A stretch of 64,000 bases of DNA from Micromonospora echinospora (GTDB lineage: Bacteria; Actinomycetota; Actinomycetes; Mycobacteriales; Micromonosporaceae): NCBI RefSeq assembly GCF_900091495.1, contig NZ_LT607413.1:1488001-1552000 (forward strand), given 5' to 3'. Shown one piece after another: positions 55,864 through 60,640 of the stretch. The notes below the pieces were generated by a model. The model worked only from the letters and a program-made list of their open reading frames with translations, did not search any database and was not told the origin of the DNA. Both the position numbers and the translations under genes were made by a program. The first letter of the stretch is position 1. Each line of letters starts with the position of its first letter.

Positions 55864-57000
55864 ATGTCGATGACGCAGTTCGAACGGTCCGCACCGACGC
55901 GGGGCGACGTGACCGGCTACCTGCTGAAGCTCATTCGGGAATCCATACCTCTGACCCAGGAACAGCTCGGCGTGGAACTCGGCGTCGATCGCGCGACCGT
56001 CCAGAGCTGGGAGTCAGGACGGCGACCGTTCCTCGCCGTCCCGCTCGGTCAAGCCGTCCGGATCCGTCAGAGGCTCGGCAGCCTCGGGGCGAACCCGATA
56101 CTGCTCGATGCCGTCGCGGACGCCGCCGAGGCCGATGCCATCCTCGCCGCCCTGCTCGGTCCGAAAGTCGAGGGGGCAGACATCACCGGGCAGCCGCTCG
56201 GATGCGCGGTACTCACCCACCGACTGTCCGACCTGATCCTCTGGGCAGTCCTCGGCCAGACACCCACCTTCATCAGAAGCCTCCCCGCGCCCCACCGTCG
56301 ACGCGGGCCCGTAGCCACCGGCCCTACCCTCTGCGCCGAGGAACAACACGCCTTCTTCACCAACCTGCACGTCCTCGCCGAACGCGCCGCAGACCAGCGC
56401 CACCCGAACGTGCTGCTCCACCGGCAGGCATGCTTCCTCGCCGGCATGGACCCCACCGGTGCCTCCGCCGCATGGCTCGCCCAGGGCAACGCCCGCAAGA
56501 CACATCGGGTGACCACCTTCCGTACCTGGTCACCGCTGTGGCCGGACGCCCGCTCCGTCGTCACCTCGCTGGCCAACCAGGGAGACCCCGAACCACTGCG
56601 GGACTTCATCTCCCGCGCGCACCCCGACGACGCCTGCCAGCGCGCCGCCCTCAACTACTCGGCGTACTGGGTCGGCGAGATCCCCTACCGCCAACCCGAC
56701 GACTCCTTCATGCCCACGACCATCACCGACTGGCGCGGCACCCGACTCCTGCGCCACCTGGTCGAACGCCTCGACGCCGACCACCCCTTCGTAGACCTCA
56801 ACATCCACAACCTGTGGGCACTGCTCACCGCCCGACGCGGACTCGTCCACGACCACCCCACCACCGGACAAACCCTCGCCGACCGCGCCGTCGCCATCCT
56901 CGACGGCGACCGGATCTCCGCGCAGTCCCGGCAGGAACTAACGTCTATCGTCTACAGCCTGCGGACAGAGGGAATCACCGGCACAGGGACGGGCAGATGA
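55864..57000 (+). CDS. XRE-family HTH protein with unclassified C-terminal domain
   Basis: A 378-residue protein. The N-terminal HTH is LIRESIPLTQEQLGVELGVD, then RATVQSWESGRRPFLAVPLG. The rest (residues 90-378) is mostly helical, with conserved-looking segments such as HRQACFLAGMDPTGASAAWL and TTITDWRGTRLLRHLVERL; it is unlike the TPR-like partner across the promoter. It overlaps the HD gene start (ATGA), so regulator and enzyme are coupled. Confidence 0.8.
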   Translation: MSMTQFERSAPTRGDVTGYLLKLIRESIPLTQEQLGVELGVDRATVQSWESGRRPFLAVPLGQAVRIRQRLGSLGANPILLDAVADAAEADAILAALLGPKVEGADITGQPLGCAVLTHRLSDLILWAVLGQTPTFIRSLPAPHRRRGPVATGPTLCAEEQHAFFTNLHVLAERAADQRHPNVLLHRQACFLAGMDPTGASAAWLAQGNARKTHRVTTFRTWSPLWPDARSVVTSLANQGDPEPLRDFISRAHPDDACQRAALNYSAYWVGEIPYRQPDDSFMPTTITDWRGTRLLRHLVERLDADHPFVDLNIHNLWALLTARRGLVHDHPTTGQTLADRAVAILDGDRISAQSRQELTSIVYSLRTEGITGTGTGR

Positions 57001-57575
57001 GCGACGACCAGCATGCTGCCGCGATGAGGTTCATCTTCGAGGCCGGCGTCCTCAAACGCGCGGCCCGAACCGGCTGGTGGTTCGCCGGCGTCAAGCACCC
57101 CGAATCCATCGCCGAGCACTCCCACCGCACCGCCCTGATCGGGATGATCCTCGCCGCCATGGAAGGAGCCGACCCCGCCCGGGTCACGATGCTCTGCGTC
57201 CTGCACGACACCCAGGAAACCCGCATCACCGACATCCCCCACATCGCCAAGCGCTACCTCACCGCCGCACCCAACACCACCGTCACCGCAGACCAGGTCG
57301 CCGACTGCCCACCCGCCGTCACCGACACCATCACCACGGCCGTCGCCGAATACGAAGCCGGCGAAACCCTCGAAGCCATCGTCGCCCGCGACGCCGACAA
57401 ACTTGAATGCCTCGTGCAAGCCGTCGAATACCGCCACCAGGGCATCGACAACCTCCAACGCTGGATCGACAGCTCCCGCGCCGCAATCAAAACCGCATCC
57501 GCGCACCGCCTCGCCGACGCCGCCCTGACCGGACAACCCCTCGCCTGGCTCACGCCGCCGCCGCACCCGAAGTAA
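56997..57575 (+). CDS. HD-domain phosphohydrolase (YfbR/HDDC2-like 5'-nucleotidase)
   Basis: A 192-residue HD-domain enzyme. The metal ligands are His in SIAEHSHRTA, the HD pair in LCVLHDTQETRITDI, and Asp in ARDADKLECLVQA. HDDC2/YfbR-type proteins dephosphorylate nucleoside monophosphates, and HD nucleotidases also appear in phage defence. Its coupling to an XRE regulator is notable. GC content is core-like. Confidence 0.82.
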   Translation: MSDDQHAAAMRFIFEAGVLKRAARTGWWFAGVKHPESIAEHSHRTALIGMILAAMEGADPARVTMLCVLHDTQETRITDIPHIAKRYLTAAPNTTVTADQVADCPPAVTDTITTAVAEYEAGETLEAIVARDADKLECLVQAVEYRHQGIDNLQRWIDSSRAAIKTASAHRLADAALTGQPLAWLTPPPHPK

Positions 57576-57684
57576 CCGACCCCTCGCCCGTTGTTGGTCC
57601 CAGAGATCTACGATTTCGACTCCCGGCGCTGTAGCAGGCGCCCCGTCGTGGGCTCACATCATTGGTGGTTGCCGGTGTTCAACA

Positions 57685-58098
57685 TTGGCGGGCAAAGACC
57701 GTCGTACACCGAGGACCACAGCCGCTACCCCGGCTGCGGTGCAGTTTAGTGACGATCTGCTGCGATGGGCGAAGCTTCCGCCTGCGCTGGCCGGCGACGA
57801 CCTCGCTTCCGTACCTGTACCTGGCGGCGTCGTTTACTGGCAAGCTGCTGCTCGACACGAACTGCCGAGCCGGCTGCGGGATCTTGCCGCGAACCTGCTG
57901 TCCCACTCACGCGCCGAACAGAAGTCGGTGACTGACGCCGACCTCGACGCTCTCGGCCTCACCGATGCGCCCCTGCTGATCGAATACTCGGGCCGGCCCA
58001 GCTGCCCACAGAGGCCGCCACCGACCGGTACGCCAGGCGCATCTCACCCACTCGGGCACTGCCGCAGCGTGATGGAGTCATTCCGAGGAGTTACGTAG
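57685..58098 (+). CDS. Hypothetical protein upstream of the methyltransferase
   Basis: A 137-residue frame from a TTG at 57685; no ribosome-binding site supports this start. The sequence is helical (FSDDLLRWAKLPPALAGDDL, then HELPSRLRDLAANLLSHSRA), with an acidic segment before EYSGRPSC and a Pro-rich end that may reflect a frameshift. It is too weak to call as part of the restriction-modification unit. Confidence 0.35.
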   Translation: MAGKDRRTPRTTAATPAAVQFSDDLLRWAKLPPALAGDDLASVPVPGGVVYWQAAARHELPSRLRDLAANLLSHSRAEQKSVTDADLDALGLTDAPLLIEYSGRPSCPQRPPPTGTPGASHPLGHCRSVMESFRGVT

Positions 58099-58185
58099 GC
58101 GGACGTGCGGCGGGAGCGGCACCTACGCCAAGATCAACCAAAACGGAGGCCAAGGTCGCGGCAGCGACCGCACGCATGGTGATCG

Positions 58186-59886
58186 TTGGCGTATCGTCTC
58201 GAGGTGCCTTCGACTCTTCGCCTCGAGCGAACCCGCTCCACGACTGAACTCGAGCGCCTCGAGGACCGTCCGGCGTTCGGTGAGGTCTTCACCCGCCGCT
58301 GGGTCGTAGACACGCTGCTAGACATGGTCGGCTACACGGCTGACGCAGATCTGCCTGCACTGACTATCGTTGACCCCTCGGCTGGCTCCGGCGCCTTCCT
58401 GACCGCCGCGGTTCAGCGGCTCCTACTGGCGCGACGTCGCACCGGAACAGCCTTCGCGAGTCTGGATGGCTGTCTACGGGCCTTCGACGTGCAATCTGAG
58501 CACGTCGCCCGGTGCCGCCACCTGGTTGAACAGATTCTGCTCGACGATGGCTGTCCGGTGGCAGAGGCCGCTGAGCTGTCCAGGATCTGGGTAATCCGGG
58601 CCGACTACCTGCTTGATGAGGGTGTTTCCAGGCCAGCCGATGTGATCATCGGCAACCCGCCATACATTCGCATCGAAGACCTGCCCACCGAGATCAACGA
58701 GGCGTACCGCCGCCGTTGGAGCACGATGACTGGACGAGCAGACGTCTACGTTGGTTTCATTCAACGCGGGCTGTCCACGCTCAAGCCGGGTGGACGGCTC
58801 GGGTTCATCTGCGCGGACCGGTGGATGCGCAACCAGTACGGAGCTGCGCTGCGCCGCTTCGTTACCGACGGCTTCTCTGTTGACGCGGTGTGGACCATGC
58901 ACGACGTGGACGCCTTTGAAAGTCGGGTCTCGGCCTACCCGGCGATAACCCTGCTACGTCGCGGCGAGCAGGGCAGCGCGGTGGTCGCCGACACCGATGC
59001 CTCCTTCGGTGCCGCCTCTGCGGCGGAGTTGGTCAGATGGTCCCAGAGGTCAGAGACCAACTCTTTCCAGGGCAGCGGTTTTGCCGCTCACCGGCTGCCA
59101 CACTGGTTTCCCGGCGATGAAATGTGGCCTGCGGGTTCGCCGGCGCGGCTGGCGATGATTGAGCACCTGAAGGACAACTTTTCGCCGTTGCACGATCCAG
59201 ACGGCGGCACCCGGGTTGGTATCGGCGTCGCCACCGGCGCTGATCAGGTCTTCGTCACCACCGACGGAGAGGCGGTCGAGCCCGACAGGTTGCTTCCCCT
59301 GTCGATGGTCCGTGACATCGCCACCGGCGCCTTTGCCTGGTCTGGGCGCTATCTGGTCAACCCGTGGGAGGCCGATGGGTCGCTGGTCGACCTAAACGCC
59401 TATCCGAGATTGCGGGCTTACCTGGCGAGGCACAGCACTACGCTGCGCGGCCGGTTCATAGCCAAGCAGCGGCCGGCAACGTGGTACCGGACGATCGACA
59501 AGGTCAATCACGAGCTGACCGCCCGGCCGAAGCTCCTGCTGCAGGACATGAAGACGACGATCCACCCCGTTCTGGAGCGGGGTGGCTCCTATCCACATCA
59601 CAACCTGTACTTCGTCGTCTCCGATGTGTGGGACATGGAGGTGCTCGGCGGGCTGCTGCTATCCGGAGTCGCGCAGGCGTTCATCGAGGCGTACTGCGTG
59701 CGGATGCGCGGCGGCACGCTGCGGTTTCAGGCTCAATACCTCAAACAGATCCGCGTGCCGCAGCCAGGTGCCATCGACACTACGGTCGGCGAACGGCTGC
59801 GCTTGGCGTTCCGTCACCGCGACCGGCAGGCCGCGACCCGCGCCGCCGTCGCCGCCTACGGCCTCGACACGTTCGACCTCGACTGA
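58186..59886 (+). CDS. N6-adenine DNA methyltransferase, PaeR7I/XhoI type
   Basis: A 566-residue gamma-class DNA methyltransferase (Eco57I-like architecture). SAM-binding motif I is VDPSAGSGAFLTAAV (residues about 62-76) and the catalytic motif is IIGNPPYIRIEDLP (about 154-167). The C-terminal 300 residues are the target-recognition part. The following gene is a PaeR7I-family endonuclease, so the expected target is CTCGAG, methylated at the adenine. The start is uncertain (TTG 58186 or GTG 58204). The first ~80 bp contain four CTCGAG sites. Confidence 0.88.
   Translation: MAYRLEVPSTLRLERTRSTTELERLEDRPAFGEVFTRRWVVDTLLDMVGYTADADLPALTIVDPSAGSGAFLTAAVQRLLLARRRTGTAFASLDGCLRAFDVQSEHVARCRHLVEQILLDDGCPVAEAAELSRIWVIRADYLLDEGVSRPADVIIGNPPYIRIEDLPTEINEAYRRRWSTMTGRADVYVGFIQRGLSTLKPGGRLGFICADRWMRNQYGAALRRFVTDGFSVDAVWTMHDVDAFESRVSAYPAITLLRRGEQGSAVVADTDASFGAASAAELVRWSQRSETNSFQGSGFAAHRLPHWFPGDEMWPAGSPARLAMIEHLKDNFSPLHDPDGGTRVGIGVATGADQVFVTTDGEAVEPDRLLPLSMVRDIATGAFAWSGRYLVNPWEADGSLVDLNAYPRLRAYLARHSTTLRGRFIAKQRPATWYRTIDKVNHELTARPKLLLQDMKTTIHPVLERGGSYPHHNLYFVVSDVWDMEVLGGLLLSGVAQAFIEAYCVRMRGGTLRFQAQYLKQIRVPQPGAIDTTVGERLRLAFRHRDRQAATRAAVAAYGLDTFDLD
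58198..58263. promoter_or_regulatory. Cluster of four CTCGAG sites at the methyltransferase start
   Basis: CTCGAG at 58198, 58222, 58249 and 58258: four 6-bp sites in 66 bp, where about one per 3 kb is expected at this base composition. CTCGAG is the recognition sequence of PaeR7I/XhoI-family systems. The sites overlap the start region of the methyltransferase gene, so methylation state or enzyme binding could control expression. Confidence 0.75.
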
Positions 59887-59911: not shown

Positions 59912-60640
59912 ATGGACCGTGCGGCGATCCAGCATGCGGTGGAAGACTTCTGGCTCAAACGCGGTGCGCAGGACGAAGCGCTGGAAGACGGCGGTAAGGC
60001 CGGCGGCGGCGCGCGCGCCAACGGCCACATGGGAACCTTGACCGACATCGTCGCGCAGGAGTTCCGTGACGCGGGTCTGTCCGGTGCTGAAATCCTTGCC
60101 GGTAAGCCGTACCTGCCCGGCTACTACCGCGCCCGGAAGCAATGGGACCTCGTGGTGAGATACCGAGGCATCCTTGTCGCCGCGATCGAGTTAAAGTCTC
60201 AGATCAAAAGCGTCCAGCGCAACATCAATAACCGCTTTGAGGAGGCACTGGGCACCGCCACGGACACTCACGCGGCCCAGGCTAAGAATCAGGCGTTCGG
60301 CGAGGTTCCGCCGTGGCTCGGCTACGTTTTCATCCTGGCCGAGACCGCGGAGACCGAGAGCGTGCCGCGTGAGCCGACCATGCTGTTCCCCGGCGACCCT
60401 GCGTTCCGCGACACCACGTACAATCAGCGCTACCAGGAAATGCTGCGCCGCTTTATCGGCGACAACATCTACCAAGCCGGATGGTTTATAACCACCAAGA
60501 TGACTCCGGAGTCGGTCAGCTACGCCGAACCCCTCGCGACCGCCACCGCCTTGGCTTTCCAGACTGCCATCCGCGGAAGGCTGGACTTCATCAAGGCCGT
60601 CGTTCAGGGCATGAGCTCCGGGGAAACAACCTCATTGTGA
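59912..60640 (+). CDS. Type II restriction endonuclease, PaeR7I/XhoI family
   Basis: A 242-residue endonuclease matching the PaeR7I family throughout. The catalytic core is YYRARKQWDLVVRYRG followed by VAAIELKSQIKSVQRNIN (about residues 70-102), the PD-(D/E)xK-like Asp and the ExK. Downstream NNRFEEALGTATDTHAA and PPWLGYVFILAE also fit. The expected cut is C^TCGAG. It begins 26 bp after the methyltransferase gene, with GGGAGGGGC upstream. Length is family-typical. Confidence 0.9.
   Translation: MDRAAIQHAVEDFWLKRGAQDEALEDGGKAGGGARANGHMGTLTDIVAQEFRDAGLSGAEILAGKPYLPGYYRARKQWDLVVRYRGILVAAIELKSQIKSVQRNINNRFEEALGTATDTHAAQAKNQAFGEVPPWLGYVFILAETAETESVPREPTMLFPGDPAFRDTTYNQRYQEMLRRFIGDNIYQAGWFITTKMTPESVSYAEPLATATALAFQTAIRGRLDFIKAVVQGMSSGETTSL

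Follow-up and report, generated by a model that had tools for sequence, protein, structure and literature searches.

A rare cluster of CTCGAG sites at the start of a PaeR7I/XhoI-type methyltransferase gene in Micromonospora echinospora, possibly part of a methylation-sensitive promoter

A chromosomal restriction-modification (R-M) system of Micromonospora echinospora has four copies of CTCGAG, the target of PaeR7I and XhoI, at the start of its methyltransferase gene (M). They begin at positions 58198, 58222, 58249 and 58258 of the window, by which we mean the whole 64-kb stretch of DNA that was analyzed, and the window has 11 CTCGAG sites altogether. The cluster is real and it is rare. The best explanation we can offer, to which we give slightly less than an even chance, is that M is transcribed from a methylation-sensitive leaderless promoter with the system's own target in its core and three more targets in the first 60 bp; the M gene may in this manner sense whether the genome is already protected. 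The computed support for this explanation consists of the gene families, the positions of the sites, the promoter pattern, the poor fit to codon usage and the recurrence of clusters in some relatives. We infer that the sites are methylated and that their methylation affects transcription.

The original prediction gave the positions of the four sites exactly as they are recovered in the sequence, and it assumed an expected rate of about one site per 3 kb. That rate was too high: the whole genome has 721 CTCGAG sites in 7,775,486 bp, or about one per 10.8 kb. Therefore, the cluster is more unusual than first stated, and the observation is somewhat stronger than first claimed. In the 7.78-Mb genome, the start of M is the sole match for three CTCGAG sites with gaps of 30 bp or less. 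The same pattern is matched in 14 of the 160 genomes of the genus, and several of these places are tandem repeats.

The M gene (58204..59886, forward strand, GTG start, 560 amino acids) encodes a methyltransferase of the N6-adenine type with Eco57I/N6_Mtase domains and an NPPY motif. Pfam finds two methylase domains, PF07669 (E 3.1e-20) and PF02384 (E 1.7e-8), in the translation taken from TTG 58186, and no other domain in the M protein at E <= 0.001. A PDB search with a profile made from ten homologues of M identifies the methylases BseCI and TaqI. In the protein collection, the nearest relatives show 84, 79, 78 and 75% identity, and the nearest named ones come from Micromonospora. The restriction endonuclease gene (R; 59912..60640, forward strand, 242 amino acids) begins 25 bp past the stop codon of M. 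Its product has the Pfam XhoI family domain PF04555 (E 1.5e-32), and a PaeR7I/XhoI-type R is present near M in 118 of 130 homologous M loci, as judged by tblastn in the DNA 3' of the M anchor motif described below, in 107 of them on the same strand. These two results bear out the endonuclease family named in the original prediction. Judged by its domains and gene order, the locus is a chromosomal PaeR7I/XhoI-type M-R pair, with M followed by R in the same direction. As a query against its own genome, the R protein finds only this R gene at E <= 0.001, and a search of the PDB by sequence gives no match to R. NCBIfam assigns R to no family, and its matches to M are all far below the curated cut-offs. 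Distant matches to M occur in 25 phage records, none of which spans 80% of M.

The DNA immediately 5' of M has a layout that recurs among the homologues. A hexamer TATCGT (58192..58197, forward strand), which we predict to be the -10 element of the M promoter, is followed by CTCGAG (58198-58203) and then by the GTG at 58204. The general form of this layout, TANNNT followed after 5-8 nt by an in-frame ATG or GTG, is found in 100 of 133 homologous loci, redundant loci included, versus a mean of 8.1 in shuffled sequences; the gaps in the cases found are 6-8 nt. TATCGT itself is also present in L102, the locus of Kibdelosporangium philippinense. A TANNNT hexamer separated by a short gap from a start codon is the layout of leaderless transcripts, which are common in Actinobacteria. 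The GTG at 58204, which is also the start of the public protein P0001 (560 amino acids), is most likely the start of M, and the M mRNA is probably leaderless. A scan of 57560-58320 for sigma-70 consensus promoters found none.

If the gene starts at this GTG, as is most likely, then site 1 (58198..58203; none of the four sites is assigned a strand) is non-coding and lies just 5' of the gene. It fills the gap between the predicted -10 box and the start codon, at -6 to -1 of the predicted leaderless transcript, and so this presumably cognate site overlaps the predicted core promoter. The other three sites lie inside the gene and each encodes Leu-Glu: site 2 (58222..58227, +19 to +24) at codons 7-8, site 3 (58249..58254, +46 to +51) at codons 16-17 and site 4 (58258..58263, +55 to +60) at codons 19-20. 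Thus the earlier description of the cluster as lying within the start of M holds for sites 2-4, and site 1 most likely falls outside the gene. Successive sites begin 24, 27 and 9 bp apart, in each case a multiple of three, and in the M frame all four sites read CTC GAG.

We envision the following sequence of events. In a naive host the sites would be unmethylated, the promoter would be fully active and M would accumulate. M would then methylate N6 of the adenine at the fifth base of CTCGAG, which in site 1 places the modified bases at -2 and, on the opposite strand, at -5. Both would lie inside the region melted by RNA polymerase, and their methylation would weaken promoter opening or escape. 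M would consequently fall to a lower steady level and, because the two genes are co-directional, R would probably be throttled along with it. Replication would produce hemimethylated sites, which could briefly reopen the promoter.

By analogy with PaeR7I, which converts the fifth base of CTCGAG to 6-methyladenine (PMC3031569), M is predicted to recognize and methylate CTCGAG. We word this shared specificity as a prediction because R is just 37-39% identical to its relatives found in the genus, and because the evidence from site depletion is mixed. Within the genus, CTCGAG occurs at 82.5 sites per Mb in the 15 genomes that have an M homologue, versus 114 in the 145 that lack one (one-sided p = 0.008), but relative to GAGCTC the same comparison gives p = 0.13. 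Genome-wide depletion was therefore rejected as proof of specificity.

The first alternative is that chance and protein constraint produced the cluster, i.e., that the N-terminal tail of the protein needs Leu-Glu and that its spelling as CTCGAG is a functionless accident of one lineage. We consider this unlikely. The in-frame reading of all four sites as Leu-Glu is what it would predict; the Leu-Glu pairs at residues 7-8 and 19-20 are kept in the relatives P0002 (Micromonospora sp. NPDC000089), P0003 (M. globbae) and P0004, and nearly all of the remoter homologues are without the cluster. Codon usage, however, explains the cluster poorly. Among 209 long ORFs sampled from this genome (400 kb, as 20 stretches of 20 kb, L182-L201), only 20 of the 332 Leu-Glu pairs are spelled CTCGAG, whereas independent codon use predicts 31%. 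CTC is chosen over CTG in 58% of cases before GAC and in 8% (20 of 244) before GAG. By this host habit, the probability that all three in-gene Leu-Glu pairs are CTCGAG is about 2e-4. The host may be the wrong yardstick because M could have come from another host; by M's own codon use (12 of 57 Leu codons are CTC and 21 of 27 Glu codons are GAG) the figure is about 0.004, which is not negligible. The fourth Leu-Glu of M, at codon 457, is spelled CTGGAG. Two other points count against chance and constraint: site 1 is most likely non-coding, and clusters also exist in relatives, one of them partly in non-coding DNA. The original prediction had itself cautioned that the sites might be a codon-usage effect, and this possibility, now checked, fits poorly.

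As a separate observation, the codon pair CTC-GAG is strongly avoided in this genome. The avoidance may have a cause other than this R-M system, since the genome's CTCGAG count is within the range of the genus.

A count of CTCGAG at the starts of many homologous M genes, which had been suggested as a check, gives a result that favors the skeptic for most of the family. The loci were drawn from genomes (the best 80 of 540 confirmed relatives), plasmids (12 of the 46 plasmid records that cover at least 80% of M) and viral contigs, where L206, L209, L211 and L212 are second copies and were counted once. They were aligned on a conserved motif, GEVFTRRW, which follows an N-terminus of about 25 residues in the window's M and serves as anchor in 105 of an initial 107 loci; L106 and L125 were placed by match position, as was the later L213, which has no anchor motif. 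Loci at least 75% identical, ungapped, over the 130 bp preceding the anchor were collapsed, which reduced 134 loci to 102 (130 to 99 in the bin survey described below). The set leaves out L165 (no anchor motif), L161 (partial, with an internal stop), the weak, distant L026-L040 and the loci L001-L010 from the R search. The DNA of the nearest relatives, P0002-P0005 (75-84% identity), is absent from the collections searched.

Within these 130 bp, which lie before the catalytic domain, CTCGAG is absent from 96 of the 102 non-redundant loci, and 98 have at most one copy; at least one site is present in six loci and at least two in four. The family therefore mostly works without the cluster, and the regulatory idea, if right, would fit a minority of it. 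The four loci with two or more sites are the window (four sites), L148 (four), L102 (two, with its relative L159) and the plasmid PaeR7I locus (two; L170 and L177). Two or more sites occur in 4 of 102 M starts versus 3 of 3398 other 130-bp bins (one-sided Fisher tests here and below, p = 2.2e-5), in 3 of 101 versus 3 of 3365 without the window (p = 4.5e-4) and in 2 of 100 versus 3 of 3331 when PaeR7I is also removed (p = 0.008); these values are approximate because bins within one locus are not independent. For one or more sites, the M start differs from other bins at p = 0.05 only. A coding bin at +780 to +915 from GEVFTRRW has a single CTCGAG in 12 of 99 loci, the most of any bin, versus 6 of 99 at the M start, and so it is multiple sites rather than mere presence that mark the M start. 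The sites in the +780 bin probably reflect a conserved stretch of protein. When all 64 palindromic hexamers were counted in the 130 bp before the motif in 100 loci, none except CTCGAG occurred three or more times in a single locus; non-palindromic hexamers reach three or four copies in the same stretch of seven other loci.

The individual relatives display some informative patterns. In L148, from another genus of the same family (60% identity), the sites lie at -69, -43, -26 and +7 relative to the predicted start. They fall at the end of an upstream reading frame, in intergenic DNA and in codons 3-4; three of the four are 5' of its GTG start and their spacings are not multiples of three. In L102 and in L159 (genome G566, same order), sites at -25 and -8 sit in the arms of a perfect inverted repeat of 11 and 12 bp around the -10 box (L102:2926-2958 and the corresponding place in L159). 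These two actinobacterial genomes are divergent, yet L102 and L159 differ here at 2 of 33 bases, one of them within the -10 box and the other next to it, and the arms are unchanged. This conservation of the arms is suggestive, but it is weak evidence because the only two differences fall between the arms. A single site, at -23 to -18, is present in L069. In the plasmid PaeR7I M gene, the two CTCGAG sites are 7 bp apart, 12 and 5 bp ahead of the GAIFT motif; depending on which start is annotated, they lie 36-100 bp inside the gene, in a conserved stretch of protein.

The earlier proposal is partly supported. The idea that methylation of the cluster may lower M expression draws support from the family of the partner genes, the predicted promoter overlap, the poor codon fit and the clusters in L148, L102 and L159, and against it stand the 96 of 102 siteless loci. 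Judged from these sequences, with the backing of a few relatives, the regulatory idea is plausible. No specific support was found for the accompanying suggestion that the cluster is a loading site for the enzymes.

A second alternative, which we regard as improbable, is that M, or some other protein, occupies clustered sites that are unmethylated or hemimethylated and so blocks transcription sterically, methylation being incidental. The varied positions of the sites among lineages (-69 to +60) would suit a binding array, and the inverted repeat of L102 and L159 resembles an operator. The same variation, however, means that the geometry is not fixed across lineages, and the 721 genomic sites would compete for the protein. 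In addition, a methyltransferase generally leaves its fully methylated product, so that such an operator would repress most strongly in naive hosts, which is the wrong sense.

Far less probable still is a self-restriction fuse, in which R would cut the cluster first if methylation lapsed and so destroy the M promoter and the locus. An R of the same family does adjoin M and several targets lie within 66 bp, but a local fuse would add little because R would then cut any of the genome's 721 sites as well, and no such case appears in the available portions of two reviews on R-M control. Least credible of all is control of translation or termination by RNA structure formed by the repeats at the 5' end of the mRNA: sites 3 and 4, which are 3 nt apart, could form a hairpin, but the 101-nt 5' end folds like its shuffled versions (z 0.06), there is no terminator-like site in 57560-58320 and the spacings differ in the other clusters.

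Returning to the methylation-sensitive promoter, the closest known kind of regulation is the control of M genes through methylation of their promoters. CfrBI, LlaDII and AhdI are controlled in this way, by methylated target sites in the M promoter (PMC12707154), and a recognition site in a met promoter allows methylation to be sensed and promoter activity to be lowered (PMC6237814). CfrBI has a cognate target site in the M promoter, as is predicted for the window, and there its methylation lowers M transcription; the inverted repeats at the CfrBI promoter are resembled by L102 and L159 but not by the window (PMC12707154). The CfrBI genes are divergent with overlapping promoters (PMC12707154), whereas M and R of the window are co-directional and 25 bp apart, and the window has several sites. 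LlaDII and AhdI are described as controlled by promoter methylation that acts on the M gene alone (PMC12707154). Both belong to enzyme families other than the window's. AhdI also has a C protein. Regulatory methyltransferases of the SsoII/Ecl18kI type are alike in that M represses its own promoter (reviews, including PMC12707154). They do so with an N-terminal helix-turn-helix, whereas only the short N-terminus noted above precedes the conserved motif in the window's M, and Pfam reports nothing of this kind there at the threshold given. Among PaeR7I-family systems, the plasmid PaeR7I itself has an M that is 41% identical to the window's over 95% of its length and likewise has two CTCGAG near the start of the gene; its pair is inside the annotated gene, whereas the window has four, including one in the predicted core promoter. 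No description of target-site clusters at PaeR7I-family M genes was found in the titles and abstract openings of the open-licence papers that literature searches brought up.

If the explanation is true, promoter-methylation control would reach an enzyme family in which it is new, as well as M-R pairs whose genes run in the same direction, and an R-M system could distinguish naive hosts from protected ones with no need of a regulator protein. It makes simple predictions for site mutants and M-minus hosts. In the window and in L102, a site lies in the discriminator of predicted leaderless actinobacterial promoters, and clusters at M starts occur in several lineages of one large family. A broader claim, which we hold to be rather doubtful, would be that PaeR7I-type systems have repeatedly evolved target arrays over leaderless M promoters, with the number of methylated sites setting M-R output in a graded, replication-coupled way and one promoter throttling both genes.

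Several other features of these loci deserve mention. A 137-amino acid ORF (57685-58098) lies between a 5'-deoxynucleotidase-like gene (56997-57575; a weak NCBIfam match, below the cut-off) and M. The ORF matches nothing in Pfam or NCBIfam, and the protein collection contains one partial relative, P0121; it is perhaps a gene remnant. When 57560-58203 was compared with 81 genomes, 25 of them, including its own, had matches at E <= 0.001, and outside its own place the matches were only short or weak, the best being 149 bp at 70%. On a Mycolicibacterium arabiense plasmid (L172), the gene immediately before the M homologue encodes a cytosine-5 methyltransferase, and the sequence examined beside this homologue gave no match to a PaeR7I-type R. 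Finally, P0067, a 791-amino acid metagenome protein, is listed with both the M domains and an XhoI endonuclease domain and is possibly a natural M-R fusion.
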